Source: Hyphomonadaceae bacterium (GTDB taxonomy: Bacteria; Pseudomonadota; Alphaproteobacteria; Caulobacterales; Hyphomonadaceae). From it: a stretch of 41,777 nt of DNA. The notes below the pieces were generated by a model. That model did not search any database and was not told the origin of the DNA. It worked only from the letters and a program-made list of their open reading frames with translations. Positions 16,027-38,485 of this stretch are shown one piece after another. Position 1 is the first letter of the stretch, and each line of letters begins with the position of its first letter. The translations under genes and the position numbers were made by a program. The DNA lies in assembly GCA_030158285.1 (NCBI GenBank), contig JAOATF010000154.1, forward strand, positions 1-41,777, read 5' to 3'.

Positions 16027-16036
16027 GACTCCAGCG

Positions 16037-16956: not shown

Positions 16957-18135
16957 ATGCGATCACTGGTTCTGGCGGCAGGCGCGGCTGTGGGCCTGGC
17001 GGCGTGTGCATCCGATGCGCCGCAGGACATCAATCCGTTCAGCGGGGAAGCGACGCCGCTCTCGATCAGCATGCTGCCGCCATCCGCCGGGCTGACGCTG
17101 GCGCAGACGCGCAATGGCAGGGGCGAGGCGGTGACGCTGCTTGTGACGGCGATGCGGGAGGGCGGGATCAGGGCGATCGATCTTTCCAGCGCAGGCGCAA
17201 GGCCCGGCGCGGATATGTTCGAGGCTGTGGCGGCTGTTGGCGCGCAGAAGCTGTCGGAGCTTCAGAAGGCGGGCGGCGGGCGTGACTATGCGATGAAGGA
17301 TTTGCTGTCGCCGGCGGGGACGGGCGAGCGGCATATCGCGTCGGGCACCAACTTCCGGGAGCATCAGGAGGAGGCGTCGATCGCGTCGGTGTTCAACTTC
17401 CCGAAGTTTGGGCCAGCGAGTCCGGCGGTCTCGACGGTGAAGCTGAAGCCGCGCGTGCTGCTCGACTATGAGGTGGAGATCTGTGTGGCGTTCGATCGCG
17501 CGATTGCATCGGTGGCGGATTTCGATGCGGCGAAGAAGGGCTTCTTCGTGTGTGGGGATTTCAGTGACCGGGCGATGCTGGTGGAGCGGATCGACCGGGC
17601 GAACATGGCGTCTGGCGTGGGGTTCAGCGATGCCAAGAGCGGGAGCGACTTCTTCCCGACGGGTCCGGTGATGGTGATCCCGAATGACTGGGCGAGCTTT
17701 GTCGATGCGGAGCGGATCACCACCAAGGTGAATGGCGCGATGCGGCAGGATGCGCGCGGGGGCGAGATGATCCTTGATTTCCGCGAGCTGACCGAGAAGG
17801 CGCTGCGCGACCGCGATGACACGCGGTATGTCTATGCGGGGCAGCATGTGACGCTGTTCGGCGGGCAGGCGATCCCGCGCGGCAGCGTGCTGATGTCGGG
17901 GACATCGGAGGGTGTGATCTTCCGTCCGCCGACGCCGGAGGATTTCGCGGAGGGTGGCAAGCGGACCAGGGCTTCGGGCGCTGCGCCGTCGGAGCAGGCG
18001 GAGGTTCGCGCTGTGCTGGATGTGTTCATCGAGCGCGAGATGGCGGCCAAGCGCTATCTGCAGCCGGGCGATGTCGTGCAGCACGCGGGGTCCAGCCTGG
18101 GCGCGCTGAGCGTGACGGTGGTGGACGGGCGGTAG
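16957..18135 (+). CDS. Exported fumarylacetoacetate hydrolase-fold protein
   Basis: 392 aa from ATG 16957 (GGGGAG six nt upstream). The first 18 residues are a lipoprotein signal ending LAAC. The C-terminal two thirds carry the FAH fold: a SGTNFREHQEE block (usual NYxxH), DYEVEICVAFD with the acidic metal ligands, FSDRAML, then SGSDFFPTGPVMV matching the family's K-x-F-DxxxPxGPW stretch, and GSVLMSGTSEGV. FAH enzymes cleave C-C bonds of beta-diketo acids and are normally cytosolic; a lipid-anchored periplasmic form is unusual. Probably controlled by the divergent GntR protein. Confidence 0.85.
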   Translation: MRSLVLAAGAAVGLAACASDAPQDINPFSGEATPLSISMLPPSAGLTLAQTRNGRGEAVTLLVTAMREGGIRAIDLSSAGARPGADMFEAVAAVGAQKLSELQKAGGGRDYAMKDLLSPAGTGERHIASGTNFREHQEEASIASVFNFPKFGPASPAVSTVKLKPRVLLDYEVEICVAFDRAIASVADFDAAKKGFFVCGDFSDRAMLVERIDRANMASGVGFSDAKSGSDFFPTGPVMVIPNDWASFVDAERITTKVNGAMRQDARGGEMILDFRELTEKALRDRDDTRYVYAGQHVTLFGGQAIPRGSVLMSGTSEGVIFRPPTPEDFAEGGKRTRASGAAPSEQAEVRAVLDVFIEREMAAKRYLQPGDVVQHAGSSLGALSVTVVDGR

Positions 18136-24982: not shown

Positions 24983-25067
24983 GCCCAGATGGCGGAATTG
25001 GTAGACGCACTGCTTTCAGGTAGCAGCGGGTAACACCGTGGAGGTTCGAGTCCTCTTCTGGGCACCA
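24983..25067 (+). tRNA. tRNA-Leu (anticodon CAG), integration target
   Basis: 85 nt with encoded CCA: acceptor GCCCAGA/TCTGGGC, anticodon arm CTGCT-TTCAGGT-AGCAG with anticodon CAG, long variable arm, T-arm with GGTTCGAGTCC. Its 3' end is the left attachment site of the phage-like element; the tRNA remains intact. Confidence 0.95.
25048..25067 (+). other. attL (3' end of tRNA-Leu)
   Basis: GAGTCCTCTTCTGGGCACCA. Shares 14 exact bases GAGTCCTCTTCTGG, then CACCA, with the right end, differing by one extra G here. Confidence 0.8.
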
Positions 25068-25116
25068 TTTGTTCTTTTGGGGGTTGTCACTACCACACCC
25101 CAAACCGGCTTCCGGT

Positions 25117-25130
25117 CCTTATAAATCAGG
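25117..25130 (+). repeat. 14-bp terminal inverted repeat, left copy
   Basis: CCTTATAAATCAGG, the exact reverse complement of 38348-38361 near the right end. Lies 50 nt inside attL. Could be an integrase or excisionase/host-factor site. Confidence 0.75.
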
Positions 25131-25189
25131 CAAAATTCGCTCTGTTGGCGGTTCGCCGCTAGCCCCTTCGCGAGCCGTCGGGTGCGCCG

Positions 25190-25243
25190 TTTACGGTATC
25201 AGGCACGGTATCGGGCCCATTGCTTGCAAGGGGATACCGTAAA
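25190..25243 (+). promoter_or_regulatory. Left arm-type sites / integrase-gene operator (ACGGTATC x3)
   Basis: TTTACGGTATC (25190-25200) and its inverted partner GATACCGTAAA (25233-25243) with a third ACGGTATC at 25205-25212. The inverted copy ends on the A of the integrase ATG, so binding could also repress int. Confidence 0.6.
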
Positions 25244-26454
25244 TGAAGCTGAATCCGTCCGACATCGCGCGGCTGATGCCGCAATCCAAGCCGTTCAAGG
25301 TGAGCGACGGCGGCGGACTCTACCTGTTTGTGGCGCCCAGCGGCGGGAAGCTCTGGCGCTATGACTACAACTTCAACGGCAAGCGGAAGACGCTGAGTCT
25401 CGGCGCCATGCCCGCCGTCAGCCTAGACGACGCCCGCAAGGCTTGGCGGGTCGCGAAGGATCAGGTTGAGCAGGGGAAAGACCCCGCCGCCGAAAAGCAG
25501 GTCGCCAAGCGCACCGCCAAATTCCGGGCCCGCACGACATTCGCCCATGTCGCCGCCGAAGTGCTTGTCCGGCTCCGGCAGGAAGGGAAGGCCCGCACGA
25601 CCATCCGGAAGCGCCTTTGGCTGCTCCGGACGCTGGCGAAAGACCTCCGCCCCCGCCCCATAGCCGACATTACCGCCCCCGAGATTCTGGCCGTGCTCCA
25701 GCAGGCCACGAAGCGGGGTAAGCTTGAGTCGGCCCGCCGCCTGCGGGCGGCCATCGGGCAAGTCATGCGGCTGGCCGTGGCGACCAACCGCGCCACCATG
25801 GACCCCACGCCCTCCCTTCGCGGCCTGATACCGGCCCCGAGGGTGAAGCACCGCGCGGCCGTCACGACGCCGGAAGCCGCTGGGAAGCTGCTGACGGCCA
25901 TTTCCGGCTATGACCAGAAGGTCATCCGGCTAGCCTTGCTGCTCTCGGCTTACACCTTCCCCAGACCGGGCGAGTTGCGCCTAGCCAAATGGGACGAGGT
26001 GGACACGCGGAAGCGCGTCTGGATCATCCCTGCCGAGCGGACAAAGATGCGGCGGGAACATCGCGTTCCCCTCTCCCAGCAGGCCCTCACGCACTTTCAG
26101 GCCCTTTGGCGGATCACGGGTCGCAATGGCGACGGCCTTTGCTTTCCGGGCCTTCGCGCCGGCCGCCCTATCTCAGAGAACACGCTGAATGCCGCCCTGC
26201 GGACTCTGGGCTTCGACGGCGATACGCACGTCGCGCACGGCTTCCGCGCGATGGCGTCCACCATCCTCAACGAACATTCCGACTTCTCGCCAGACGCCAT
26301 CGAGAAGGCGCTGGGACACATGGAAATGAACGGTGTTCGCCGCGCCTATCATCGCGCGGAGCACTGGGCAGAGCGCGTCGAGTTGATGGACTGGTATGCG
26401 AACTTCCTCGACCGGCAGAGTTTCGGTGTCTGGAAAGAACGCATCCTCGCCTAG
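25243..26454 (+). CDS. int: Tyrosine-type integrase (P4/CP4-57 family)
   Basis: 403 aa. N-terminal DUF4102-type arm-binding domain (~1-90) with SDGGGLYLFVAPSGGKLWRYDY and LSLGAMPAVSLDDAR; core-binding SAM-like domain (~95-190); catalytic domain with R241 (TFPRPGELR), H332 and R335 (AHGFR), H359 (ALGHM) and nucleophile Y369 (RRAYHR). All five catalytic positions are present, so it looks active. Such integrases use tRNA 3' ends; this gene starts 175 nt from tRNA-Leu and reads away from it. GGGGA lies upstream of ATG 25243. Confidence 0.95.
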   Translation: MKLNPSDIARLMPQSKPFKVSDGGGLYLFVAPSGGKLWRYDYNFNGKRKTLSLGAMPAVSLDDARKAWRVAKDQVEQGKDPAAEKQVAKRTAKFRARTTFAHVAAEVLVRLRQEGKARTTIRKRLWLLRTLAKDLRPRPIADITAPEILAVLQQATKRGKLESARRLRAAIGQVMRLAVATNRATMDPTPSLRGLIPAPRVKHRAAVTTPEAAGKLLTAISGYDQKVIRLALLLSAYTFPRPGELRLAKWDEVDTRKRVWIIPAERTKMRREHRVPLSQQALTHFQALWRITGRNGDGLCFPGLRAGRPISENTLNAALRTLGFDGDTHVAHGFRAMASTILNEHSDFSPDAIEKALGHMEMNGVRRAYHRAEHWAERVELMDWYANFLDRQSFGVWKERILA

Positions 26455-26584
26455 TCTCGCAACGCCCGGTTTTCAGCCGACACTCGCCTATTGAGTAACC
26501 TATAAAGGTTCGCGCTTAAGGCGCTGCTGCCTCGTTTCCCATCCACGCTTGGATCATCGCTGCCTCTCCAACGCGGAGGCAGAC

Positions 26585-27133
26585 ATGTCCGAGAGGGACA
26601 AACTAGGGATCGCAGACGTTGCACGGCTGGCCGCCGTGCCCGGTCGATCCGAAACGCAGGCGAAGTCGCGGCTCAACCGCTGGAAAGACCTCGGCATCAT
26701 TCCGCCCGACGGGGAAATCCCCGCGCGTGGCGGTAAGGCTTACGTCTATCCCCAGACCACGGGCGCCATCTTCGCGGTTCTCTGCGACCTCTTCGACGCA
26801 GGCATCGTCGTAGATCACGAGCGCCTTCGCGGCATGTGGGGCTATCTCGCAGAGCCGCACGCCGAAGGCTGCCATCCGCACATCACGCACGTTCTGGACG
26901 CCGTCGCCAAGGGCGAGGCGTGCTGGCTCATCCTCACACTCTGGCGCGATCCGCAGACGGGCGACTTCAAAAAGACCTGCTGCACCCGGTTCGAGGATCA
27001 GGCGGACAAGCCGATTGCGCCGCCGACGCCCGACTATGAGCCGTTGGGCGAATACATCGTCTCTTTCCACAAGCTGCTTGATCGCTTCACGAGCGCGGAA
27101 TCGAACGTGCGGCCGATCCGGGTTGAGGGCTGA
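26585..27133 (+). CDS. Winged-HTH (MerR-like) DNA-binding protein of the satellite
   Basis: 182 aa from ATG 26585 with GGAGG five nt before it. Residues ~6-75 look like a MerR-type winged helix: LGIADVARLAAVPGRSETQA, then LNRWKDLGIIPPDGEI and KAYVYPQTTGAIFAV. The rest (~80-180) is an unassigned domain containing CHPHITHVLD and ILTLWRDP. Position right after int and before the head genes suits a regulator of excision or of the structural operon, as AlpA-type proteins do in satellites; this is inference. Confidence 0.75.
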   Translation: MSERDKLGIADVARLAAVPGRSETQAKSRLNRWKDLGIIPPDGEIPARGGKAYVYPQTTGAIFAVLCDLFDAGIVVDHERLRGMWGYLAEPHAEGCHPHITHVLDAVAKGEACWLILTLWRDPQTGDFKKTCCTRFEDQADKPIAPPTPDYEPLGEYIVSFHKLLDRFTSAESNVRPIRVEG

Positions 27134-27135
27134 CC

Positions 27136-28515
27136 ATGGCCCGCGCATCCGCACTTCGCAATTTCCGCCGGGCGCTCGCCCGCTTCATCGCGCCAGAGCA
27201 GACGCGCGGCTATGACGCCGGCCGCTGGGACAGGTTTCCGCGTGAAGCCCGCATGGGCCGCACATCGCTGGAAACGATCCAGGCTGCGCCGCTGATCCGC
27301 AGCAAGGCTCGCTATTTCGCCGCCAACGATGCCCACGCATCGGCGGGCGTCAACGCGCTCGCGACCTACCTCTGGGGCGCCGGAGCCGTTCCCGCTCACA
27401 CCAATGCCGCTTTAGTCGCGGCCTTCCTGCAATGGTGGGACAACTGCGACGCCGATGGCCGAACGAACTTCGGCGGCCTGATCCGGCTCGCCATTCAAGC
27501 CCTCGTGGTGGATGGCGAATGCTTCCTCATCTTCCGCCAGCGTGCGGACGGTCTGAAGCTCCAGCTTATGCCCGGCGAGCAGGTGGACGAGTCCGTCACG
27601 CGCGAGCTTGGCGGCGGCGCCTTCATCGCAGCCGGTATCGAGTTCAACGCGCAAGGGGAGCGCGTCGCCTACTGGATTCGTCCCTACCTCCCGACTCAGC
27701 AGTTCGAGACGTGGGCAGCGCCGATCCGGGTTGATGCGGCGGACGTGCTGCACCTGATGCGCCCCGATGGCGTCGGCCAGATTCGCGGCGTGTCGTGGCT
27801 GGCGCCCGTCATGCTGAAGCTAGCCGATCTGGGCTTGCTCTCGGATGCTTTGCTGAAGGGCTTCCAAGTCGCGGCGATGCACGCGGGCTTCATTGAAGAC
27901 GCCAATGGCGTCTCTCAGCTTCCGTTCGAAGGGGAGAAGAGCGGCGACGCGCTGGACGTGTCGCTGGAGCCCGGAGTCGTGCGCCGCCTCCCGCCGGGCC
28001 ACAAGATCACTTTCAACAACCCGCAGGCTGCCCAGCAGTCGGGCGAGTTCCTTACGGCCATGATCGAAGAGATTGCGGCCGGGTTGGGCGTGCCGGCCTT
28101 CATGGTGTCGGGGAACGTCAGCCGCGCGAACTACTCCAGCCTCCGCGCGGCGCTCATCACGTTCAAGGCGTCGCTGGAAGCCATCCAGTTCAACGTCATT
28201 GTTCCGCAGCTACTCGCGCCGATCTGGCGCCGGTGGATGCTGACGCAAGAGCTTCGCTCTCAAGGTCGGTCTGGCGAAGAGGATGTCGGGGAGGTTGCCG
28301 AATGGCGCTTCCCCGCCATGCCTGAAGCGGACCCGTTCAAGGCGCTGCAAGCCGTCAAGCTTGCGCTCGACTCCAAGCTGATGAGCCGCCGCGAAGCCAT
28401 CGCCGCGCGCGGTGAAAGCATCGAGCGCGTGGATGCGGACATCGCCGCCGATCCGAACGCGCAAGAGCCCAGCGACGAACCCAACACCGAAGAGGACGAC
28501 TCCAATGCCGAATAG
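27136..28515 (+). CDS. Phage portal protein (lambda gpB-like)
   Basis: 459 aa, ATG 27136, two nt after the wHTH gene's stop. Phage_portal_2 features: an Arg-rich N-terminus, IRSKARYFAANDAHASAGVNAL, LVVDGECFLIFRQ, LQLMPGEQVDE, DVLHLMRPDGVGQIRGVSWLAPV and SRANYSSLRAALITFKASLE, which is the characteristic clip/stem-to-crown stretch. Forms the dodecameric DNA gate of the procapsid and docks the terminase. Length is slightly short for the family. The 3' end overlaps the next ORF by 11 nt. Confidence 0.93.
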   Translation: MARASALRNFRRALARFIAPEQTRGYDAGRWDRFPREARMGRTSLETIQAAPLIRSKARYFAANDAHASAGVNALATYLWGAGAVPAHTNAALVAAFLQWWDNCDADGRTNFGGLIRLAIQALVVDGECFLIFRQRADGLKLQLMPGEQVDESVTRELGGGAFIAAGIEFNAQGERVAYWIRPYLPTQQFETWAAPIRVDAADVLHLMRPDGVGQIRGVSWLAPVMLKLADLGLLSDALLKGFQVAAMHAGFIEDANGVSQLPFEGEKSGDALDVSLEPGVVRRLPPGHKITFNNPQAAQQSGEFLTAMIEEIAAGLGVPAFMVSGNVSRANYSSLRAALITFKASLEAIQFNVIVPQLLAPIWRRWMLTQELRSQGRSGEEDVGEVAEWRFPAMPEADPFKALQAVKLALDSKLMSRREAIAARGESIERVDADIAADPNAQEPSDEPNTEEDDSNAE

Positions 28516-30331
28516 CATTCAACTCGAATTGCGCGCGGCATCGCTCGCGCCGACAACGTTCAACGCCGATGAGAACACGGTTGAAGCCGTCATCTCGACC
28601 GGCGCCGACGTTGTGCGCGGTAGCTTTGTTGAGCGCCTGCCTGTGGGCAATGCCGACCTTCGCAACATCGCCGGAGCGCCCGTTCTCGACGCGCATAACC
28701 AAGGCAGCACGCGCGCCGTGCTCGGCGTGATCCAGAAGGCATGGCGCCGCGAGGGAGAAATCCGCGCGCTCATCAAACTCTCATCGCGCGATGATGTCGC
28801 CGGCCTGGTCCGCGACATCGCTGACGGCATCGTCCGCAATCTTTCCATCGGCTACCGCGTCACGCGCTGGGCCGACTCCACCGACTCCAAAGGCCAGCGT
28901 GTTCGAACGGCGCTGGCGTGGTCCATCCATGAGGCTTCGTTCGTTCCCATCGGCGCTGATCCCCACGCCAAAGTCAGGAGCATTCCCATGCCCAAGAAAA
29001 CCGGCGCCAATCCGGCGCCCGAAGCGGACGTTATCGACACGCCCGCGAACGAACCGACCGTCGCGCAAACGCGCGCGGAGATTCGCGACATCATCAAGCG
29101 TGCTGGCGGTACGCCGGAAGATGCGGATGAACTCATCGACGCAGACGCCAGCGTGGAGCAAGTCCGCGCCGCCGCCTACGATCTCATGACGGATCGCAGC
29201 AACCGCGCTCCGGCTCCGGTCATCCGCACGCGGGAGCTTGGTCCTTCTCCGGAGCAGACGCGCTCGCTTCGTGAAGAGGCGCTGGCCGTTCGCATTGGCG
29301 GCGGTACGCCTTCGGAGCAAGCCCGGCAGTTTGTCGGCTTCTCCATCGTGGACCATGCCCGCGACATGCTGGAAGCGGCGGGCGTGCGGACGCGCGGCCT
29401 CAACAACGAGGCTATCCTCACGCGCGCCCAGCACACCGTCAGCGACTTCCCCGAACTGCTAACGGGTGCGGGCGCTCGCGTGCTGAAGCCTGCCTATGAG
29501 GCGGCGGCTTCGCCGCTCGTGTCGCTGGCCCGCAAGGTCACGGCTTCCGACTTCCGGACGCAATCCATGCTGCAACTGGGCAACATGGGCAATCTGGAGA
29601 AGGTCTCGGAGTCTGGCGAGATCACCGCCACGACGCGCGGCGAAGCGAAGGAATCGTGGAGCCTCGACACCTACGGGCGCAAGTACGCGATGTCCCGCAA
29701 GGCGCTCATCAACGACGATCTTGGCGCCTTTGCCGACTTCGCGACCGAAGCTGGCAGAGCGGCGGCCAACACCGTTGCGGACCTGCTGGTCTCGACCCTG
29801 ACGCAGTCGAACGGCGCCGGTCCCGTCATGGGCGATGGCGTCCGCCTCTTCCATGCGGACCACGCCAACATCAGCGCCGAAGGTCTCGCTATCGACGAGG
29901 GCAGCGTGAGCATGGCGCGTGTCGCCATGATGACGCAGACCGGAGTCGACGGCCAGACGCTCGTCAGCGTGAAGCCGGATACGCTCATCGTTCCGCCGTC
30001 GCTGCTGACGCTCGCTGAGAAGTTCGTGGCGAGCATCCAGCCCATCGACACCGACTCGGTGAACCCGTTCAGCCAGAAGCTCACCATCGTCTGTGAGCCG
30101 CGTCTGGACGCTATCAATCCGTGGGATTGGTATCTGGCCGACTCCCGCCTTGCGGCGCTCGTGCTCGGCGGTCTCGCCGGGAACGAAGGTCCGCAAATCG
30201 CTTCGCGCGAAGGCTTCGACATTCTGGGCCGCGAGTTCCGCGTGATCCTGGATGTCGGCGTCGGCCCGAACGATTGGCGCGGCTGGTTCCACATGGGCGG
30301 CCACACCGACTCCAACAGCGTCGGAGGCTAA
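28505..30331 (+). CDS. Fused prohead protease / major capsid protein
   Basis: 608 aa from ATG 28505 inside the portal 3' end. Residues ~15-160 form an HK97-type (U35) prohead protease with H64 (LDAHNQG), S114 (RNLSIGYRV) and E143 (HEASFVPIG). A Pro/Asp-rich linker (~162-260) probably acts as scaffold. Residues ~290-608 match Mu gpT-type major capsid proteins (SLDTYGRKYAMSRKALINDD, LFHADHAN, TLIVPPSLLTLAEKFV, LYLADSRL-like segment, NDWRGWFHMGG). After assembly the protease would free the capsid chain. AGGAG at 28976 before an internal ATG 28988 (M162) could also start a separate capsid polypeptide. Confidence 0.93.
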   Translation: MPNSIQLELRAASLAPTTFNADENTVEAVISTGADVVRGSFVERLPVGNADLRNIAGAPVLDAHNQGSTRAVLGVIQKAWRREGEIRALIKLSSRDDVAGLVRDIADGIVRNLSIGYRVTRWADSTDSKGQRVRTALAWSIHEASFVPIGADPHAKVRSIPMPKKTGANPAPEADVIDTPANEPTVAQTRAEIRDIIKRAGGTPEDADELIDADASVEQVRAAAYDLMTDRSNRAPAPVIRTRELGPSPEQTRSLREEALAVRIGGGTPSEQARQFVGFSIVDHARDMLEAAGVRTRGLNNEAILTRAQHTVSDFPELLTGAGARVLKPAYEAAASPLVSLARKVTASDFRTQSMLQLGNMGNLEKVSESGEITATTRGEAKESWSLDTYGRKYAMSRKALINDDLGAFADFATEAGRAAANTVADLLVSTLTQSNGAGPVMGDGVRLFHADHANISAEGLAIDEGSVSMARVAMMTQTGVDGQTLVSVKPDTLIVPPSLLTLAEKFVASIQPIDTDSVNPFSQKLTIVCEPRLDAINPWDWYLADSRLAALVLGGLAGNEGPQIASREGFDILGREFRVILDVGVGPNDWRGWFHMGGHTDSNSVGG

Positions 30332-30336
30332 CCGCC

Positions 30337-30561
30337 ATGAGCGCGCTGACTCTCGCTGACCTGCAATCCTTCCGTGATGCGCTCGTGCGCGGCCTCGCTT
30401 CCGGCGAACGCCGTGTGCGCGACGCATCGGGGGAGGAAGTCGAATACCGCAGCGTTGGCGAGATGCAGCGCGCCCTTGGCGTGGTCGAGTCCCGCATCGC
30501 CGGAATGCAGACCACGGCCCCCAACGTGATCCGATTCAACACTTCCAAATTTGGAGACTGA
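30337..30561 (+). CDS. Small head-tail joining (gpW-like) protein
   Basis: 74 aa from ATG 30337, five nt after the capsid stop. The pattern LADLQSFRDALVRGLASGERRV, SGEEVEYRSVGEMQRALGVVESRI matches gpW-like head-completion proteins, which plug the portal and form the tail-docking site. In a satellite lacking tails this protein would be part of the interface to helper tails. GpW-like assignment rests on size, position and pattern. Confidence 0.7.
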   Translation: MSALTLADLQSFRDALVRGLASGERRVRDASGEEVEYRSVGEMQRALGVVESRIAGMQTTAPNVIRFNTSKFGD

Positions 30562-30562
30562 A

Positions 30563-30925
30563 ATGAAGAACTTCGTTCAAATGGGCAACAACCTGACGCT
30601 TGCTGCCCCGTATGCCGTTGAAGCAGGCCAAGGCGTGCTCATCGGCCAACTCTTCGGCGTGGCTGCTGGCGACGCGGGTAACGGCGCGGAGGTGGATATC
30701 TCCACCGTCGGCGTGTTCGAACTCGCGAAGTGGAATACCGCCGTCTTCACCGTCGGCGCCCCGGTCTACTTCGACGTGGCGACGAAGTCTGTTCGCAGCG
30801 GCAATGACGACGACTCGAACTCGGCAGGCGACAACGAAGCCCTCATCGGCGTCGCGGTCGCGGCGGCCGGCGTCGGTCAATCGACCGTGCGGGTGAAGCT
30901 CGGCACGCCTGTCGCTCTGGTCTAA
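30563..30925 (+). CDS. DUF2190 capsid decoration-type protein
   Basis: 120 aa from ATG 30563 (GGAGACTGAA upstream, 1 nt after the previous stop). Beta-rich, Gly/Val/Ala-rich sequence typical of DUF2190: LTLAAPYAVEAGQGVLIGQLFGVA, then GVFELAKWNTAVFTVGAPVYFD, ALIGVAVAAAGVG and VRVKL. DUF2190 proteins are found beside gpT-like capsids and are thought to be capsid cement or spike proteins. Location directly after the head genes supports this. Confidence 0.85.
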   Translation: MKNFVQMGNNLTLAAPYAVEAGQGVLIGQLFGVAAGDAGNGAEVDISTVGVFELAKWNTAVFTVGAPVYFDVATKSVRSGNDDDSNSAGDNEALIGVAVAAAGVGQSTVRVKLGTPVALV

Positions 30926-30929
30926 CGCC

Positions 30930-31280
30930 ATGACGTTCAAGCGTGGTTCGCTCGTGAGCTACGGAGGCCGGGCGGCAGAGGTGCAGGGCGTTCAACCCTT
31001 CACCCTGCCGTCGGGTCGCTCCATTGACTGCCTCGTGCTGCTTTACACAGCGCAGCCCAGAGGCATCGCCCGCATCCCCGTGGAGCGCGTTGCGGACAAC
31101 GTGCAGCGCATCACGGCGAAGCAGGCAGCCGCCATGGATGCCAATCCCGTTAGCCCCGTGTTCCGCATCCTCTCGAAGGCGCAACGCGCCAAGAGCGAAG
31201 CGGAGCGCCTGCAACGCCAAGCCGACTTCGGGCGCAACGGGGGTCTGACAAAAGCAAGAAACCGGAAGCGCGCCGCCTGA
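30930..31280 (+). CDS. Hypothetical satellite protein, SH3-like N-terminus
   Basis: 116 aa. Begins TFKRGSLVSYGGRAAEVQGV, an SH3/KOW-like strand pattern, with a central VLLYTAQPRGIARIPVERVADNV and a basic helical C-terminus (AQRAKSEAERLQRQADFG..ARNRKRAA). No family assigned. It starts 4 nt after the decoration gene, so it is probably part of the head operon. A hairpin-forming stretch (CGGCGC 31289-31294 and GCGCCG 31312-31317) lies behind it. Confidence 0.65.
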   Translation: MTFKRGSLVSYGGRAAEVQGVQPFTLPSGRSIDCLVLLYTAQPRGIARIPVERVADNVQRITAKQAAAMDANPVSPVFRILSKAQRAKSEAERLQRQADFGRNGGLTKARNRKRAA

Positions 31281-31361
31281 GAAAGAAACGGCGCCCACCG
31301 AAAAATCGGGAGCGCCGCAGAGGGATCAACTTCAACACCGCAACCCCGGAAAAGGTGCAGT

Positions 31362-31730
31362 ATGAGAACGCCTGACCTAGCCTCCCCGAAAAGACAACCC
31401 CCCACTTCGACGAAGCTTGGAGACTGGCGGCGCATTGCGGAGCCGCAAGCCGCGCTGCTCTTCGAGCTTGCCCGCTATGAGCGTAGCGAGCGCGTCCCTG
31501 AGCATCGACGGCCGATCCGGGCGATTGCCAAGGCCATCATTGAAGGGCGCCGCGCGTGGCCGCGTGAGCTTCTGCCGTGGAAGCTTTGGCGTGAGCTTCG
31601 AGGCGAAGACAACGCATGGGAGGACGCGGCGAACCTCACCCGGCCGCAACGCGACCGGCTCCGCGCCGAAGATGAGGCGTGGGAACGTGACGGCCAGCGC
31701 CGCAACCGCATCGCGGAGCTTCTGGCATGA
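31362..31730 (+). CDS. Hypothetical Arg/Glu-rich helical protein
   Basis: 122 aa from ATG 31362. Strongly charged and helical after residue 20 (LLFELARYERSERVPEHR, WPRELLPWKLWRELRGEDNAWED, RPQRDRLRAEDEAWERDGQR). Unassigned. Its stop overlaps the next start as ATGA. It lies between the head genes and the helicase, so a replication or packaging role is possible. Confidence 0.55.
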   Translation: MRTPDLASPKRQPPTSTKLGDWRRIAEPQAALLFELARYERSERVPEHRRPIRAIAKAIIEGRRAWPRELLPWKLWRELRGEDNAWEDAANLTRPQRDRLRAEDEAWERDGQRRNRIAELLA

Positions 31731-31930
31731 CACGCGGAGAACGAATCCTCGCGGAGATCGAGGCCAAGCGCGCCGCACGCAGACGGCGCGTCGCCTTCAC
31801 GGTCCCGACGATCAAACCCCCGCGCCCATTCAAGGGGCTCCCTCAACGTAGGCCGATCCAGCCTGTCAGCCTGCGAGCGTTTTCGAAGCGCGTCGTCTTT
31901 CCAAGTAGCTCGAAGGTGTATTGGCCATGA
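31727..31930 (+). CDS. Small basic hypothetical protein
   Basis: 67 aa, coupled by ATGA overlaps on both sides (31727 and 31927-31930). Very basic (AEIEAKRAARRRRVAF, RPFKGLPQRRP), likely nucleic-acid binding or disordered. No family recognised; the tight overlaps are the main evidence that it is translated. Confidence 0.55.
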   Translation: MTRGERILAEIEAKRAARRRRVAFTVPTIKPPRPFKGLPQRRPIQPVSLRAFSKRVVFPSSSKVYWP

Positions 31931-33288
31931 GAACGCTGGAAGACATTCTGGGCGCCGAGTCCGACGCAGCCGAGATAGAAGAGCGCGACGCGCGCATTGA
32001 TCGCATGAACCGGCGTCATGCCGTCCTGTCGCATGGCGGGAAGACTCGGATCATGCGCTTCGGCGCTGATGGCGATTTCACCCTAGAGACGCCGCAAGAC
32101 CTGCACACATGGTACGCCAATGATGTGACGTGGACTCGCTCGCCCAACGGGACCGACATCGCGACTCCCCTCTCGAAGGAATGGCTGCAACACCCCGACC
32201 GCCAGCAATACAATCGCCTTGGCTTCTGGCCTGGCGGGCGCGCCCCGCGCGGCGCGTACAACCTCTGGCAGGATTGGGGAGTCGAGCCGAACCGCAAGGC
32301 ATCGTGCGACCTGATCCTGAAGCACATCCGCGAAGTGGTGGCGGCGGGCGATGAAGACCTGTTCTGGTATAACGTGAAGTACGACGCGCACATGGTGCAG
32401 CGTCCGCAGGACAAGCCCGGAGTCGCTCGTGTGCTTCGCGGCGGCAGGGGCGCGGGCAAAGACACCTATGGCGAATTGCTGGTCCGCATCTGCGGTAAGC
32501 GTCACTCCGCCATCATAGGCGATAGCAACCGGCTTACGGCGCGGTTCAACTCCCTCTTCGAGTCGGCGCTCTTCGCACACATTGAAGAGGCATTCTTCAG
32601 CGGCGACCCGCGCGCACGGGGCAAGCTGCAACACATCATCACGAGCCGGGACATCACCATTGAGCGCAAGGGGCTGGAGCCCTTCAGCAACCCGTCTTAC
32701 CTGCGGGTGTTCATGACCACGAACGAGGATTGGGCCGTTCCGGCTGGAGCCGATGAGCGGCGCTATCTGGTGGTCGATGTGTCGGAGCGGTTCAAGCAGG
32801 ACCACGATTACTTCGCAGCCCTGCGGGCGGAGATCGAAGGCGGCGGAGCGGGCGCCTATCTCGCCTACCTGTTGTCGCTCGACATCTCTGACTTCGACGT
32901 GAGGGACGTTCCCCAGACCGACGCATTGGCCGACCAGAAACGGGAAACGCTCGACCCGCTGGCGCGCTGGTGGGAAGGCGAACTGGATGATTGCGCGTGG
33001 TGGGAAGGGGAGGATGATCGTTCGCCCACAACCGTCAACAAGGCGAGCCTGTATCGCTCGTATGAGCAGTACGTGCAGTCCCTCCGCTTCGGCGGCAATC
33101 CGAAGCCGCGCGCGGTATTTTACAAGACGTTGCGGCGGATGTGCCCCGGCGTCGAAGAGCAGCGCGGCAACAGAAGCGCCAGCCGCTCGCGCATTCTGAC
33201 AATCCCGCCCTTGGACCAGTGCAGACGCTCATTCGCGCACTTCACGGGCGTCAGTCACGCACGTTCTGCCGGGGAGTTGCTGTCATGA
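31927..33288 (+). CDS. SF3 helicase (DUF5906 / P4-type primase C-terminal)
   Basis: 453 aa from ATG 31927, whose ATGA overlap with the previous stop favours it over TTG 31921. Walker A GGRGAGKDT (172-180), a Walker-B-like FAHIEEAFF (216-224) and the sensor motif FMTTNEDWAVP with N266, followed by DERRYLVVDV, are those of phage/plasmid primase C-terminal helicases. No primase (AEP or TOPRIM) domain is present, only ~150 residues of unassigned N-terminus with HGGKTRIMRFGADGDF. Likely unwinds the element's origin; a cluster of TGGACCA repeats begins immediately after its stop. Confidence 0.85.
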   Translation: MRTLEDILGAESDAAEIEERDARIDRMNRRHAVLSHGGKTRIMRFGADGDFTLETPQDLHTWYANDVTWTRSPNGTDIATPLSKEWLQHPDRQQYNRLGFWPGGRAPRGAYNLWQDWGVEPNRKASCDLILKHIREVVAAGDEDLFWYNVKYDAHMVQRPQDKPGVARVLRGGRGAGKDTYGELLVRICGKRHSAIIGDSNRLTARFNSLFESALFAHIEEAFFSGDPRARGKLQHIITSRDITIERKGLEPFSNPSYLRVFMTTNEDWAVPAGADERRYLVVDVSERFKQDHDYFAALRAEIEGGGAGAYLAYLLSLDISDFDVRDVPQTDALADQKRETLDPLARWWEGELDDCAWWEGEDDRSPTTVNKASLYRSYEQYVQSLRFGGNPKPRAVFYKTLRRMCPGVEEQRGNRSASRSRILTIPPLDQCRRSFAHFTGVSHARSAGELLS

Positions 33289-33297
33289 GCGCGTTTA

Positions 33298-33476
33298 CTT
33301 GGACCACTTGGACCAGCTTGGGCCACGAAAACACCAGCATTTGCAGGGGTGGTCCAGGTGGTCCAGGTGGTCCAACAACATCTGTAGTTATACGCACGCA
33401 TACGCACACGCGCACACGCGCGCACATGAGACGTGGCGAAGTGCGACGCACCTGGACCATTGGACCACCTGGACCA
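33298..33476 (+). repeat. Iteron-like TGGACCA cluster (candidate origin or packaging site)
   Basis: Three tandem groups of a 9-bp unit: CTTGGACCA twice plus a degenerate GGGCCA copy (33298-33325), GGTGGTCCA three times in inverted orientation (33348-33374), and CCTGGACCA/ATTGGACCA/CCTGGACCA (33451-33476). An alternating ACGC/CACG tract (~33390-33425) lies between the last two. The stretch between helicase and small terminase is 301 nt and has no supported gene. Confidence 0.75.
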
Positions 33477-33589
33477 GCGGGTCCTTTCCCATGGCGCCGC
33501 GCCGGGGGTCCACCGAGCCCCGGTAAAAACCGCTCTCCCGAAAAACCACATTCAATTCGAGTCCCATTTTCAGTTACAGGGAGAAGCCC

Positions 33590-33937
33590 ATGAGCCGCCA
33601 AAGACGCTCAATGGCCGATCTGCTTGGCGACCCGACTCCGCCCAAACGCGGACGCGGCCGGCCGGTCGAAGATCATCGGCAAAAGCTGGTGCTCGCGCAG
33701 GCGCAGCAGGTCGAACTCAAAAACGCGAAGATGCGCGGCGAACTCATTCCCGCCGCCGACGTGGTTGCGACCTGGTCGAACCTGGTGGCGGACGCGCGAC
33801 AACGCCTTCTGGCGATCCCGAGCCGCCTCGGCGCCCAGCACGCACTCTCCCGCCAGCTTGTGGCGGCCATGGATGCGGAAATTCGCGCCGTGCTGACGGC
33901 GCTGGCGGGCCAAGGGAGCGATTCCGATGCTGGATGA
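33590..33937 (+). CDS. terS: Small terminase subunit (Nu1-like)
   Basis: 115 aa, ATG 33590 with CAGGGAGAAGCCC upstream. After a GRGRP AT-hook-like motif (~21-25) comes LAQAQQVELKNAKMRGELIPAADVVATWSNLVADAR and RLLAIPSRL, the conserved body of Nu1-type small terminases. The usual N-terminal winged helix is absent, so DNA recognition may rely on the AT-hook-like segment. Overlaps the large terminase by 11 nt. Confidence 0.85.
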   Translation: MSRQRRSMADLLGDPTPPKRGRGRPVEDHRQKLVLAQAQQVELKNAKMRGELIPAADVVATWSNLVADARQRLLAIPSRLGAQHALSRQLVAAMDAEIRAVLTALAGQGSDSDAG

Positions 33938-35768
33938 CCTCGTCACCCTCGCGCCCGGATCGGCCGCCACGGGCCGCCGGGAGCCCGCTTCCCCGCTTGC
34001 GCGAGCCGTGGCGGAAACGCTCTCGCGTTGGGCGCCTCCGCCCAAGATCAAGCTCGCAGACTGGATCGAGGCGAACGTCACGCTGCCTGCGGACGTGAGC
34101 GCGACGCCGGGCGCCATGGTGCTGTTTTCCTACCAGCGCGGAATCTGCGACGCAGCCGACGACACGACAATCTCGCGCATCAGTTTCATCAAGCCCGTGC
34201 GGATCGGCGCCACCGCCCTGATTACCGCCATCGTCGGCGCGTATGTGCAGAATGATCCCTGCAACATTCTCGCGCTCCAGCCGACGTTGGACGATGCGCG
34301 CGACTTCATGGTCTCGACCATCGAGCCGACCTTCGCCGCCAGTCCGCCGCTGGCAGGGCTGCTGACGCGGGAAAAGACGAAACGCGACACGATCTTGAGC
34401 CGTCGCTTCCCCGGCGGGTCGCTGAAGTGCGTTGCTGCGGCTTCACCGCGCAACCTGCGGCGTCACACCGTCCGCATCCTGCTCATGGATGAGGTGGACG
34501 CATACGAGCCCAGCGCCGAAGGGTCTCCGATCAAGCTGGCGGAAAAGCGGACTCTCTCGTTTGCGAACCGGCTGATCTTTCAGGCCAGCACGCCGACCGA
34601 TGCTGCAACCTCGAACATCCAGAAGGCTTACGCCGAGTCGGACCAGCGCATCTTCGAGCTTCCCTGCCCGCATTGCGGGGAGCACTTCGAACCGCTCTGG
34701 CGCCATGTGCATTGGGAGAAGAGCGAGGACGGCGACCATCTGCCCGAAACCGCGCACATGGTCTGCCCGGCGAACGATTGCCGCATTGAGGAGACGAGCA
34801 AGCCCGCCATGGTGGACGCTGGCCGCTGGCGCGCAACCCGGCCGCATGTGAAGGGCCACGCGGGCTTCAAGACATCGGCGCTCATCTCGACGCTCGCGAA
34901 CGCTAGCTGGGTGGAGATCGTGCGCGAGTTTCTGGCCGCGCGCAAAGACCCCGACCTGTTGCGTGTGTGGACCAACACGCTGATTGGCGAAGCGTGGATC
35001 GACAAGGCGGGCGAAGGTCTGGACGACTCCGAACTGCAAGGCCGCGCGGAGCCGTGCAGCCTCGAAGCGATCCCGCCAGACGTGCTCATGCTGACGGCGG
35101 GAGTCGATGTGCAGGACGACCGCTTGGAAGTGGTGACGTTGGGCCACACCGCGAGCGGCGCTATCGTCGCGCTCGACTATGAGACCATCCACGGGCCGCC
35201 GACTTCGGACGACACCTGGCAAGACCTGGATGACACGCTGAAGCGGCGCTTTCCGCATCCGCACGGCGGATCGCTTGGCTATGACGCGGCGGGCATCGAC
35301 TCCGGCTCCGGCTCGCATACCGACATCGTCTACCGCTTCACCCGCCCGCGTTTCGCGCGGCGCATCGTCAGCTTGAAGGGCGACGGCGGAAACCGGCCGC
35401 TCATAGATCGGTCCACCAAGCCCGGTCTCTACATCATGGGCGCCGACACCGCGAAGAGCCGACTCTACGGGTTGCTTGGCCGACCGGGTCTCATCCGTTT
35501 CTCGCACGATCTGCCGATGCGTTTCTATGAAGAGCTTTGCGGCGAGCGTCGCGTGACGTTCTACAAATCGGGACAGGCACGGAAGCGTTGGGAGCGCATT
35601 CCCGGCGTCCGCAACGAAGCGTTGGACGCAACGTGCATGGCGATAGCCGTGCGCCAGCTAGTCAGCTTGGATCTGACACGCCGCGAAAACGAACTGCGGC
35701 AGGTCATCAAAGCCGCGCCGACACAGACGGTTTTCAAATCAGCTTGGATGGAAAGGGGCGGGCGATGA
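33927..35768 (+). CDS. terL: Large terminase subunit (GpA family)
   Basis: 613 aa from ATG 33927. ATPase domain: KPVRIGATALI at 89-99 in place of a canonical Walker A (the family's deviant P-loop, here with no lysine after the glycine), ILLMDEVDAYE with D188-E189 as Walker B. Zinc-binding pair CPHCGEHFEP and VCPANDC. Nuclease domain from ~375 with AGVDVQDDRLEVV and GYDAAGIDSGSGSHT. GpA enzymes cut cos sites and pump DNA into heads. The gene is intact at normal length, arguing against decay. Confidence 0.93.
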   Translation: MLDDLVTLAPGSAATGRREPASPLARAVAETLSRWAPPPKIKLADWIEANVTLPADVSATPGAMVLFSYQRGICDAADDTTISRISFIKPVRIGATALITAIVGAYVQNDPCNILALQPTLDDARDFMVSTIEPTFAASPPLAGLLTREKTKRDTILSRRFPGGSLKCVAAASPRNLRRHTVRILLMDEVDAYEPSAEGSPIKLAEKRTLSFANRLIFQASTPTDAATSNIQKAYAESDQRIFELPCPHCGEHFEPLWRHVHWEKSEDGDHLPETAHMVCPANDCRIEETSKPAMVDAGRWRATRPHVKGHAGFKTSALISTLANASWVEIVREFLAARKDPDLLRVWTNTLIGEAWIDKAGEGLDDSELQGRAEPCSLEAIPPDVLMLTAGVDVQDDRLEVVTLGHTASGAIVALDYETIHGPPTSDDTWQDLDDTLKRRFPHPHGGSLGYDAAGIDSGSGSHTDIVYRFTRPRFARRIVSLKGDGGNRPLIDRSTKPGLYIMGADTAKSRLYGLLGRPGLIRFSHDLPMRFYEELCGERRVTFYKSGQARKRWERIPGVRNEALDATCMAIAVRQLVSLDLTRRENELRQVIKAAPTQTVFKSAWMERGGR

Positions 35769-36037
35769 AACGCAAGCCTGTCAAACACCGCGATTGCGCC
35801 ATGTGTGGCGAGCAATTCGAGATTGTCTTCCGGCAGAATACCAACGCGAAGACATGCGGTCCCGAATGCGCGAAGGAATATCGCAACCAATACCTTCGTG
35901 GTTGGAAAGCGGACTCCTACGCGAAGAATCCCGAACCGTGGAAAAGCTATCAGGCGGAATGGGCGAAGAGTCATAGGCCGTCGATCAACGCGCGCCTTCG
36001 TGCGCGCTACGCCGAGAAGAAGGGCGGCGCGCCATGA
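35765..36037 (+). CDS. Small zinc-ribbon protein after terminase
   Basis: 90 aa; ATG 35765 overlaps the terL stop (ATGA). CAMCGEQFEI..TCGPECAKEY gives a four-cysteine zinc ribbon, followed by a basic tail with NPEPWKSYQAEWAKSH. This resembles the front part of HNH proteins that often sit near terminases, but no HNH motif is present. Coupled to the next gene by ATGA. Confidence 0.65.
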   Translation: MKRKPVKHRDCAMCGEQFEIVFRQNTNAKTCGPECAKEYRNQYLRGWKADSYAKNPEPWKSYQAEWAKSHRPSINARLRARYAEKKGGAP

Positions 36038-36519
36038 GTTGGGCGATTGCACATGTGGAAGGTCTGAGCGCCCGTGAGACGCGCAATTATCGGCGCCGCC
36101 ATGCACGCCGCGCACGTCGAAAGAACGAGACGCCGGACGAGCGTGAGGCGCGTCTCAAGGTGGAGCGCGAGTATCAGCGACGGTATCGAGAAAAGAACGG
36201 AGACCGAGTGCGAGAGACCGGCGCAGCCTCTCGGGAGCGGAACCGCGACGAATACAACGAGAGAAGGCGAGCCCGCTATGCCGCGTTGACGCCCGCGCAG
36301 CGCGCGGAGCGACGCAAACGCTGGAAGGCAAAGCCGAAGAGCAGGAAAAAGTATCAGCGCGCCTGGCGCGAGACGAACCCCGACTACGCAAACCAAGCCG
36401 CCCGCGACCGCTACGCGCAAAACCCGGAGCCGATGAAGGCGCGGAGCCGGGCCTACTACTGGGCCAACCGGGAGCGGATCAACGCGGCGCGGCGCGCGGC
36501 ACGCCGCTTGCGAGGCTAG
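36034..36519 (+). CDS. Arg-rich protein with NPxxxxxRxxY repeats
   Basis: 161 aa, highly basic. The C-terminal half has repeated units NPDYANQAARDRY, NPEPMKARSRAYY and NRERINAARRAARR, related to the tail of the preceding zinc-ribbon protein. Such Arg/Asn-Pro repeats are typical of nucleic-acid-binding HNH-associated proteins; no catalytic motif is seen. Function unknown. Confidence 0.6.
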   Translation: MSWAIAHVEGLSARETRNYRRRHARRARRKNETPDEREARLKVEREYQRRYREKNGDRVRETGAASRERNRDEYNERRRARYAALTPAQRAERRKRWKAKPKSRKKYQRAWRETNPDYANQAARDRYAQNPEPMKARSRAYYWANRERINAARRAARRLRG

Positions 36520-36555
36520 CTTGGGGAAATGCGTGTTTGAACCGTTTTAGGACGA

Positions 36556-36996
36556 TTGTTCTTGCCCTCTGCCGCTCAGCGGGTTGCGCCCGCAGTTAAG
36601 CCGACCCGCCTGACGCGGGCTCTCATCATTCGAGATCGCCTGCTGGCGTGGATGCCCGGAAAAATGCGCTCCGAGCAAATCGGGGATGCCGCTAAGACGT
36701 TTGCGCTTCGTGTGCAGACTGCCGATGTCGGGCGATACGGCATCATGTTCCGGACGCCATTCTCCGGCGCAATTCCAGCGCCTTCGTTCGCCGACTTCGA
36801 GACTGCCGCGCTTTGGCAGGGACAGGGGAAGGAAAACCTGTCTTACGGTCTCGATGTCCATGAATCGCATGAAGAGGCTGGGCGCCCGCGCGTGCGGAAG
36901 CTCATGAGCCTTGAATGGGGGCACAACAGCGAAGTCGCGCTGGTGAGCTTCTATAAGGGCGACTGGGACGCTTCATTTCTGGAGGTTTTGAAGTGA
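36556..36996 (+). CDS. Hypothetical protein
   Basis: 146 aa if started at TTG 36556; the start is uncertain, and later ATGs (36652, 36664) lack a good ribosome-binding site. The segment from about residue 40 on has folded-protein composition (FALRVQTADVGRYGIMFRTP, SYGLDVHESHEEAGRPRV, EVALVSFYKGDWDASFLEVL). No family recognised. Its stop overlaps the next GTG start, supporting translation. Confidence 0.55.
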   Translation: MFLPSAAQRVAPAVKPTRLTRALIIRDRLLAWMPGKMRSEQIGDAAKTFALRVQTADVGRYGIMFRTPFSGAIPAPSFADFETAALWQGQGKENLSYGLDVHESHEEAGRPRVRKLMSLEWGHNSEVALVSFYKGDWDASFLEVLK

Positions 36997-37193
36997 CAGA
37001 GAAGATCAAGAAAGGCGACCGTGTCGTGCGGAAGGCGTTCGGTAATCCGGACGTTCTGCTGGTTCACAACCTCAACGAGGATGAGACCGTCGCGACCTGC
37101 GGAACAGAGCAAGGCTCCAAGCTCACGATTGAAGACATTCCGGTTGATGAGCTTATGCAGGCGCCACCGCGCCGCGACGGCTGGATGCAATGA
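36993..37193 (+). CDS. Small hypothetical protein, KOW/SH3-like
   Basis: 66 aa with a GTG start overlapping the previous stop (GTGA) and a stop overlapping the next start (ATGA). IKKGDRVVRKAFGNPDVLLVHNL and EDIPVDELMQAPP suggest a small beta-barrel of the YodC/DUF2158 type, a fold common in phages. Unknown role. Confidence 0.6.
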   Translation: MTEKIKKGDRVVRKAFGNPDVLLVHNLNEDETVATCGTEQGSKLTIEDIPVDELMQAPPRRDGWMQ

Positions 37194-37501
37194 CGGGAGA
37201 GATCGCCTGTCAGGCCGTCGCAGCCGTGCTGACGTGCTGGGCGGGCATTCTGGCCTTGCGGGCCGCAATGCCGCGAGCCGTGTCGGATCATCTCCACCGC
37301 CTGCGGCGGCAACCCACGTCTTGGACCGGCGGGGGCTCGGCAGACCCTGACATGATAGTTGCGCGCCAAGCCGCACTGGCAATCGGTGAGGCTGACGCGA
37401 TGAATGCCGAGCAAGACAGGGCCGGTCGGCTCAACCGATACGCGGCATTGCTGGGGATCGCTGCGGCGGTCGCAGGCTTAGCGGCATCGCTGCTGGGCTA
37501 G
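37190..37501 (+). CDS. Small protein with two hydrophobic segments
   Basis: 103 aa. A hydrophobic N-terminus (ACQAVAAVLTCWAGILALRAAM) and C-terminus (YAALLGIAAAVAGLAASLLG) flank a basic/polar middle, so it is probably a membrane protein. It is the last plus-strand gene of the satellite and coupled to the gene before. A holin-like role is conceivable, but there is no neighbouring endolysin, so this is only a guess. Confidence 0.6.
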   Translation: MTGEIACQAVAAVLTCWAGILALRAAMPRAVSDHLHRLRRQPTSWTGGGSADPDMIVARQAALAIGEADAMNAEQDRAGRLNRYAALLGIAAAVAGLAASLLG

Positions 37502-37511
37502 GTCTTAGCAA

Positions 37512-37739
37512 TCAAGGAAACCACTCATGCGGCCATCGCATCCAGAGTGGAAAGTGAATTACAGGGTATAGGTGGTAAAGCCCTACCCAGATTGCCACGA
37601 GCACAACCACAAAGGCGATTCCCGCGACAATTTTCGGGGCGCGAAGCTTCTCGCGAAGCACAATATACGCGCCGGCCGCGATGAAAAACGGGACCGTGAT
37701 CGTGAGCCAATTCAGCGTTTCTAGCAGTTGCTCAAGCAT
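37512..37739 (-). CDS. Small two-TM protein of the right-end minus-strand unit
   Basis: 75 aa from ATG 37739. Two TM helices (~10-28 and ~35-60: TITVPFFIAAGAYIVL and IVAGIAFVVVLVAIWVGLYHL), short basic loop between (REKLRAPK) and a C-terminal WMRWPHEWFP. Last of three minus-strand genes beside attR, 3 nt after the 58-aa gene. Small membrane proteins in such cargo slots can be toxins, holins or exclusion proteins; none can be asserted. Confidence 0.6.
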   Translation of the reverse strand: MLEQLLETLNWLTITVPFFIAAGAYIVLREKLRAPKIVAGIAFVVVLVAIWVGLYHLYPVIHFPLWMRWPHEWFP

Positions 37740-37742
37740 GTG

Positions 37743-37919
37743 CTAGCCGAGACGGATTAGCGTTTTGCCATCAGGACCGACAAGCAAGAGCCCAGCCTTT
37801 GGGAGTTCTCGCCGTTCGCCCGTGCGCGTGTTCTCATAGATCGTCTCTCCGCCTTTAGGCGTCTTGAGAAGCCGCCAGCGGCCGGGGTGCTGCGGGTGTT
37901 CGTAGAGTGCTTCCGTCAT
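37743..37919 (-). CDS. 58-aa hypothetical protein of the right-end unit
   Basis: Found by translating the gap: ATG 37919 to TAG 37743. Begins MTEALYEHPQHPGRW and contains TPKGGETIYENTRTGERREL and VGPDGKTLIRLG; small, beta-hairpin-like and basic. Its ATG overlaps the upstream gene's stop (ATGA). No family recognised. Coupling on both sides makes it credible despite its size. Confidence 0.6.
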   Translation of the reverse strand: MTEALYEHPQHPGRWRLLKTPKGGETIYENTRTGERRELPKAGLLLVGPDGKTLIRLG

Positions 37920-38185
37920 GCTGAGATCACCGGAATGCTGACCTCGCGGATAAGCTCGCCTTCCTGAAGGCCAATCGCGCGCAGAAAAACAACCTGCACT
38001 TCGGGGTAGGTCTCTTTGAATGACTCATCCAGCGGGGCTTGAATCTCTCCCCATTCCAGAAACATGTGCTCGCCGCTTCGGCCCTTGAAGCGGTAGAAAG
38101 TCAGCCCGCCGCCAAATTCCAATGGCGTATCTGGATCGCAGCCCTCAAGCATCCGCTGCATGTCGCCGACCGTGAACTGTGTCAC
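37916..38185 (-). CDS. 89-aa hypothetical protein, first gene of the right-end unit
   Basis: GTG start 38185 with GAGGGGGGAATGC upstream. Acidic soluble protein: FTVGDMQRMLEGCDPDTPLEFGGG, then HMFLEWGEIQAP and EVQVVFLRAIG. The opening VGDM..L..CDPDTPL resembles small phage proteins of the 'D-x-D-T-P' type that regulate or bind other proteins; not assigned. The unit is transcribed opposite to the rest of the satellite, as accessory genes often are. Confidence 0.6.
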   Translation of the reverse strand: MTQFTVGDMQRMLEGCDPDTPLEFGGGLTFYRFKGRSGEHMFLEWGEIQAPLDESFKETYPEVQVVFLRAIGLQEGELIREVSIPVISA

Positions 38186-38254
38186 GCATTCCCCCCTCGG
38201 TTTGGTATGACACGGAGATGCTAGAGCGAGTCGCTTGACGGTTCGATCAGTGTC

Positions 38255-38322
38255 GATACCGTGAACGAATCGGGCATCGAACCTTGCCGAAAGGCCGGTT
38301 TTTACGGTAGTCCGACGGTAGT
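38255..38322. promoter_or_regulatory. Right arm-type sites (GATACCGT, ACGGTAGT x2)
   Basis: GATACCGT at 38255-38262 is identical in core to the left sites; ACGGTAGT occurs at 38304-38311 and 38315-38322. The matching motif at both ends suggests integrase arm sites. Confidence 0.55.
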
Positions 38323-38347
38323 TTTCTGAGGGGCTTCTCTGCGAACC

Positions 38348-38361
38348 CCTGATTTATAAGG
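38348..38361 (-). repeat. 14-bp terminal inverted repeat, right copy
   Basis: CCTGATTTATAAGG, exact reverse complement of 25117-25130, 15 nt inside attR. Confidence 0.75.
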
Positions 38362-38376
38362 CCAGAACGACTCTGT

Positions 38377-38395
38377 GAGTCCTCTTCTGGCACCA
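38377..38395 (+). other. attR (remnant of the tRNA-Leu 3' end)
   Basis: GAGTCCTCTTCTGG then CACCA. It matches the tRNA-Leu 3' end except for one missing G, so the duplicated end is slightly altered. Confidence 0.8.
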
Positions 38396-38485
38396 CTTTT
38401 CCCGACACAATCAGACTAAGGTCTGACAGACAGGCATGTCTGGCGGCGCGATAAGGTCGCGCGGCTTTCGGGAAAGGATCGCGTC

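Follow-up and report, generated by a model that had tools for sequence, protein, structure and literature searches.

A tRNA-Leu-integrated element with the anatomy of a capsid-forming phage satellite in a Hyphomonadaceae genome

When a bacterial genome carries phage head and packaging genes but no tail, is it the residue of a prophage or a satellite that makes its own head and takes the rest from a helper? This question is raised by a 13.35-kb element integrated at a tRNA-Leu(CAG) gene of a Hyphomonadaceae bacterium. The window analyzed here is the whole of contig JAOATF010000154.1 (C154, 41,777 bases), from a draft genome of 4.19 Mb in 271 contigs. To our knowledge, few phage satellites make their own heads. 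We regard the element, from its anatomy and descent, as very probably an integrated capsid-forming phage satellite, of a kind that is very likely functional.

The element, its ends and its gene content

The element spans positions 25048 to 38397 (right limit 38397-38401), starting in the 3' end of the tRNA gene. The attachment (att) repeat pairs 25048-25074 with 38377-38401 through a 14-nt exact core; it is imperfect at the right end, with one mismatch and two 1-nt gaps, but shuffling the right flank 200 times never gave as high a score. The site is empty in a genome of the same genus (G012), where 68 nt separate the same tRNA-Leu from a homologue of the flanking thiolase; in G003, this interval measures 1.2 kb. 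The GC content is 0.637 in the element and 0.665 and 0.656 in the flanks, and a search of 72,556 plasmids gave no near match to it.

Of the features expected of capsid-forming phage-inducible chromosomal islands (cf-PICIs), the element has an integrase with an att-bounded insertion and its own capsid, maturation protease and portal (Table 1). Of the head-tail connectors, Ad1 alone was identified; of the packaging set, TerS and TerL are clear and the HNH-like match is weak. Overall, the gene set resembles that given for cf-PICIs in PMC10690885. Protease and capsid are fused in a single gene, to which the S78 protease model matched weakly (0.0086). The integrase, portal, fusion, adaptor, decoration protein, helicase, TerS and TerL named in the first-pass annotation are all open, lie where it had placed them and have Pfam or PHROG matches. 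Its remark that nearly every gene overlaps the next was too strong, since the overlaps of 4-11 nt are real but affect just 8 of the 16 neighbouring pairs, the others being separated by gaps of 1-130 nt and, once, of 301 nt.

Tail, tape-measure and lysis families were absent among the 20 element open reading frames (ORFs) scanned against Pfam and PHROGs, a set that left out the ORF at 33285-33593, and no element ORF matched the tail or lysis proteins of four annotated phages. These searches confirm the earlier claim that some 13.3 kb hold no such gene. The scans were confined to ORFs that were neither short nor at an edge, and stretches missed by the ORF caller fell outside them.

Table 1. Features of the element and of its insertion site in the window
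Feature	Position	Strand	Evidence
tRNA-Leu(CAG), insertion site	24983..25067	+	ARAGORN; 3' end from 25048 = attL
Tyrosine integrase	25243..26454	+	PF00589 7.5e-20, PF13356, PF22022
Putative winged-helix regulator, family-specific	26585..27133	+	no Pfam/PHROG match; weak MerR-like fold match
Portal, lambda family	27136..28515	+	PF05136 3.4e-72
Fused prohead protease-major capsid protein, gpT-related	28508..30331	+	phrog_4523 3.7e-154, PF25209 3.3e-40, PF10124
Head-tail adaptor Ad1, gpW-type	30337..30561	+	phrog_2545 1.4e-12
Head decoration protein	30563..30925	+	PF09956, phrog_122 9.1e-25
CarD/Mfd-RID-like protein (probable)	30930..31280	+	family profile, fold comparison
Small protein, no assigned role, kept in some relatives	31362..31730	+	
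Small ORF, no assigned role	31727..31930	+	
DUF5906 helicase	31927..33288	+	PF19263 1.5e-17, phrog_1156
Iterons, putative origin	33300..33476	.	8 exact TGGACCA/TGGTCCA copies, three blocks
Cos-like hyphenated dyad, putative packaging site	33502..33523	.	shuffle test in other elements
Terminase small subunit TerS	33590..33937	+	phrog_57 5.3e-17
Terminase large subunit TerL, GpA type	33927..35768	+	PF05876, PF20454; 3.2e-74
Small zinc-finger/HNH-like protein, weak match	35765..36037	+	phrog_1271 2e-4
Basic protein, kept in relatives	36034..36519	+	
Accessory slot, three small ORFs	36556..37501	+	no family match
Three small ORFs, opposite strand	37512..38185	-	sole match phrog_21180 0.031
attR, degenerate copy of tRNA-Leu 3' end	38377..38401	.	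repeat alignment, shuffles

Related elements, trees and selection

From the capsid matches in genomes of the family, order and class, 20 surrounding stretches were selected by score (L005, identical to the G221 element, was omitted from the counts). The first-pass annotation had proposed a search for the same gene order; besides the window, portal, protease-capsid, Ad1, decoration, replication cassette, TerS and TerL follow one another in full at nine loci, namely C181 in the same genome, G007, G221, G165, G209 and the viral contigs L037, L038, L039 and L040. A contiguous tail and lysis module in such relatives had been named as the sign of a deleted prophage; no tail gene was found in any same-order locus. 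L044 keeps the order as far as its cut TerL, and the fragments L004, L006 and L030/L031 are consistent with it. The integrase is found at either end, oriented with the head genes in the window, G165, L039 and L040 and opposite to them elsewhere. A second order places replication, TerS and TerL ahead of portal, protease-capsid, Ad1 and decoration, with the integrase at the end; it is present in G293, G688, G736, L042, L045 and L046, and L041 and L043 fit it where they are uncut. In G473 the genes are related, but TerL comes last and the integrase is apparently interrupted.

The integrases of the relatives adjoin many different tRNA genes: Asn (C181, G007), Gln (G221, L037), Ser (G165), Cys (G209), Leu (L039), Thr (G293), Gly (G688), Phe (G736) and Arg (G473). 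Clear repeats of the tRNA end on the far side bound seven of these tailless elements (G007, 17 nt; G221, 23; G209, 23; G293, 48; G688, 48; G736, 17; G473, 20), an eighth, G165 (15 nt), being borderline, and the att-bounded relatives measure 10.9-13.0 kb. Among 200 shuffles, none reached the score of the repeat in G007, G736 or G473 and one did in G165; the test left out G221, G209, G293 and G688, the repeats of which are longer. No att repeat was found for L037 and L039. When the ORFs of 38 loci were compared with the same four-phage tail and lysis proteins, 10 loci matched, acting as positive controls, and 28 did not, among them all 18 given as satellites. A PHROG scan of the leftover ORFs (41 in window-type and 24 in second-type loci) gave no tail family among the best 25 of 46 and the best 25 of 47 families, which comprised replication, integrase, methylase and families without an assigned function.

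With the capsid profile, matches were obtained in 7 of 105 genomes of the family, 25 of 398 of the order and 27 of 385 of the class, satellites and tailed phages mixed. In quick maximum-likelihood trees, with the unlabelled rows uncounted (9 for the protease-capsid, 8 for the portal and 7 for TerL), the labelled satellite rows formed one side of a single branch each time (capsid, 20 rows, SH-aLRT 100; portal, 20 rows, 99; TerL, 19 rows, 100), and the 15 labelled tailed rows were all on the opposite side. Among tailed phages, Rhodobacter phage RcMeacham and its kin have a protease-capsid fusion 31% identical to that of the window over 99%, and the portal, TerL and decoration protein of RcMeacham are related as well. 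Unlike the element, RcMeacham has 41 kb, full tail and lysis genes and the order TerS-TerL-gpW-portal-capsid-tail, and it falls outside the satellite clade.

Crude counting against relatives, with pS (synonymous differences) at 0.45-0.70 and so near saturation, gave ratios of nonsynonymous to synonymous differences (pN/pS) of 0.21-0.40 for portal, capsid, Ad1, decoration protein, TerS and TerL. The integrase had 0.34-0.42, the regulator 0.32-0.36 and the CarD-like gene 0.46-0.51, with higher values for the basic protein (0.62) and the helicase (0.70). On these values, the head genes are under purifying selection; their frames are open, and no frameshift was found in them. The recurrence of one tailless order at different tRNA genes of several genomes, the tRNA-bounded relatives, the single clade in three trees, a gene order unlike that of tailed relatives, the purifying selection and the empty site thus argue for a satellite lineage and not one deleted prophage. 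We therefore reject, as improbable, the explanation that the element is a defective prophage decaying after deletion of its tail and lysis genes, even if its attR is degenerate, tailed phages with related capsids exist and one element, G732, looks intermediate.

Several other points weigh against the satellite interpretation, together with the degenerate attR, the helicase ratio, the near-saturated counts and the limit of the PHROG results to the best 25 families, all mentioned above. No second head-tail connector was identified among the element ORFs. For the copy in the same genome, C181, a candidate att repeat was a gapped match whose score was reached by 3 of 200 shuffles, and it was not counted. 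G732 itself (L141 [G732:C6], 25-17864; 17.8 kb, bounded by 47-nt tRNA-Gly repeats, with a related capsid) has Ad1 at the corresponding position. It also carries genes for a tape measure and minor tail proteins, detected by PHROGs, and may be intermediate between satellites and tailed phages. It was missed by the four-phage tail search, which therefore has false negatives. Its neighbour in the capsid tree, G450, is one of four elements (G214, G450, G131 and G247, with tRNA repeats scoring 46, 33, 17 and 15 nt) that have no four-phage tail match and fall outside the satellite clade in that tree, so that taillessness may have several origins; the clade is well separated, yet other tailless lines may exist. 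The presence of Ad1 between the capsid and decoration genes had to be rejected as a satellite marker, being shared by G459 (with a connector match) and G732.

Searches for a helper among 15 genomes of the genus also gave nothing: the tape-measure family PhageMin_Tail matched none (control, 7 of 14 named genomes), nor did the RcMeacham tail tube, in a search without a positive control. Such a result, like the lack of tail genes, would suit a head-maker that moves without a dedicated helper, as tailless particles, in vesicles, or with tails taken from a tailocin or gene transfer agent of the host. However, the element retains a head-tail adaptor, only two tail markers were covered by the helper search, and virulent helpers would leave no prophage, and we find this explanation highly unlikely. 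Gene transfer agents have no integrase or att sites and are inherited vertically. A domesticated packaging locus or a host system resembling such agents, to which the maintenance of head and packaging genes under selection might point, is scarcely credible for an element with an integrase, tRNA att repeats, a replication gene, a scattered occurrence (7 of 105 genomes of the family by the capsid profile) and an empty site.

Putative origin, packaging site and CarD-like protein

The helicase named in the first-pass annotation is of the DUF5906 type, and Pfam showed no primase domain on it. Between the helicase and terS there are three blocks of iterons that alternate in direction, with a spacing of mostly 9 nt. 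This helicase-terS interval contains a heptamer repeated beyond all 200 shuffles in 9 of the 12 window-type loci, and the enriched heptamer differs nearly always from locus to locus; no enrichment was found at this position in G209, L037 and L038 with the same number of shuffles. Replication proteins also vary, with DUF5906 helicases in some relatives and AAA_25/RecA-like or primase types elsewhere. The dyad sits 67-88 nt upstream of terS and recurs beyond all 300 shuffles in C181, G007, L040 and L031 (2 of 300 in G165), without reaching significance in six other loci by the same test; its position and shape suggest a cos site. The ORF at 33285-33593, initially taken as a gene, probably codes for no protein and comprises an iteron origin together with the cos-like dyad; we rejected it as a gene because these features lie there and the codon model does not call it.

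The first-pass annotation reported no late-regulator gene and overlooked a regulator-like one, the CarD-like gene. PF02559 (CarD_TRCF_RID) matched four of nine aligned members of its family (best, 6e-11), that of the window remaining unmatched, and the family profile matched seven solved CarD sequences (5.4e-5 to 0.0036). The structural model has a mean pLDDT (predicted local distance difference test) of 79, with about 90 or more over residues 1-70, and Foldseek placed Mfd/CarD at ranks 2-4 (E of 0.015; none at 0.001 or below). BLAST homologues are clear in L031, L040, G007 and L044, counterparts in the same position but weakly similar occur in G221, L039 and G165, and none was detected in C181, L037 and L038. 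It is probably a CarD-type protein that would bind RNA polymerase. The winged-helix regulator remains putative: as an AlpA-like activator it has no Pfam match, and its weak MerR-like fold matches include none with an E of 0.001 or below. Its profile found only two loci in the genome contigs, each in a Hyphomonadaceae genome that belongs to this genus, and nothing in 50,697 phage records. It is present in most same-order relatives and was not found in L039; L037 begins at the portal.

Known satellites and a proposed life cycle

As comparator we used the element of E. coli EDL933 (NZ_CP008957, ca. 1,680,329-1,694,760), which we take to be EcCIEDL933. It measures 14.4 kb and carries an integrase, regulator, primase/helicase, capsid, protease, portal, connectors, HNH, TerS and TerL, with no annotated tail. 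The capsid, portal, TerL and TerS of the window found no match in it; the integrase matched (1e-12), as did the protease by profile only (8e-7). Unlike it, the window element has a protease-capsid fusion, a GpA-type terminase and a CarD-like gene. Judged on this one comparator, its head genes lie outside the described cf-PICI capsid group, so the first-pass label of capsid-forming PICI fits in gene set but not by homology. The element would rather be cf-PICI-like in its way of working, with a head module not homologous to that of EDL933. The cf-PICI capsids have been described as three radiations (PMC11389934), and those listed come mainly from enterobacteria and Firmicutes (PMC10803314). The Streptomyces satellites MulchRoom and MiniFlayer likewise have capsid and packaging genes of their own (PMC10690885) but are described as having terminal repeats, virulent helpers and no obvious replicase. 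P4-like, PICI, PLE and PICMI satellites are also small, integrated and helper dependent (PMC10803314 and PMC11389934); they use helper capsids, whereas the window element encodes its own. No description of capsid-making satellites in Alphaproteobacteria or Caulobacter appeared in the literature searched (subscription journals and preprints were outside its scope), which fits the earlier suggestion of an undescribed branch with a gpT-like fused capsid.

We propose that entry or induction of a helper phage would switch the element on, perhaps via the MerR-like winged-helix protein, and that the integrase would excise it and the helicase initiate replication at the iterons. The CarD-like protein, docking on the host RNA polymerase, would favour the head operon and could act as a late switch. 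Portal, protease-capsid, adaptor and decoration protein would assemble into a head with room for about 13 kb, to be filled by the TerS and TerL of the element starting at the cos-like dyad. Ad1 would connect full heads to helper-made tails, lysis would likewise come from the helper, and the integrase would insert the DNA into the tRNA-Leu of the next cell. Tentatively, and at slightly less than even confidence, we see here an old, class-wide alphaproteobacterial lineage of capsid-forming satellites that originated separately from cf-PICIs, from phages with fused protease-capsids, keeping head and packaging genes and exchanging replication cassettes that each bring their own iterons, with a mini-CarD on the host RNA polymerase as late-gene switch. 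If so, with a head module unrelated to that of EDL933, the "own head, borrowed tail" way of life would have evolved once more, from other phages. The lineage offers a marker set for finding more (portal/protease-capsid/Ad1/decoration, then replication cassette and terminase) as well as a putative origin and a putative packaging site that can be tested, and the CarD-like protein is a candidate for a new way in which a satellite may steer host transcription.

In the relatives L031, L037, L038, L040 and L123, the accessory ORFs lying between terL and the integrase include DNA methylase, AIPR, HEPN/Ymh-type and PIN matches, among 41 ORFs scanned. Many satellites carry such defence-type accessory genes, so these count for the satellite interpretation. 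In the window, 37190-37501 and 37512-37739 encode small proteins without family match whose hydrophobic stretches, by eye, resemble those of membrane proteins. C181 (L024:336-12672) is a second satellite of the same genome, beside tRNA-Asn. Its TerL, TerS and portal are ca. 83% identical to those of the window, but divergence is far greater in the capsid part, the decoration protein and the helicase, a pattern that suggests recombination within the head gene. The 6.1-kb viral contig L177 has the portal followed directly by a long terL frame, either a deletion derivative or an assembly join. Finally, in a second-type element (L180, 7646-8328), the interval from terL to the accessory genes contains internal repeats of ca. 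65 nt.

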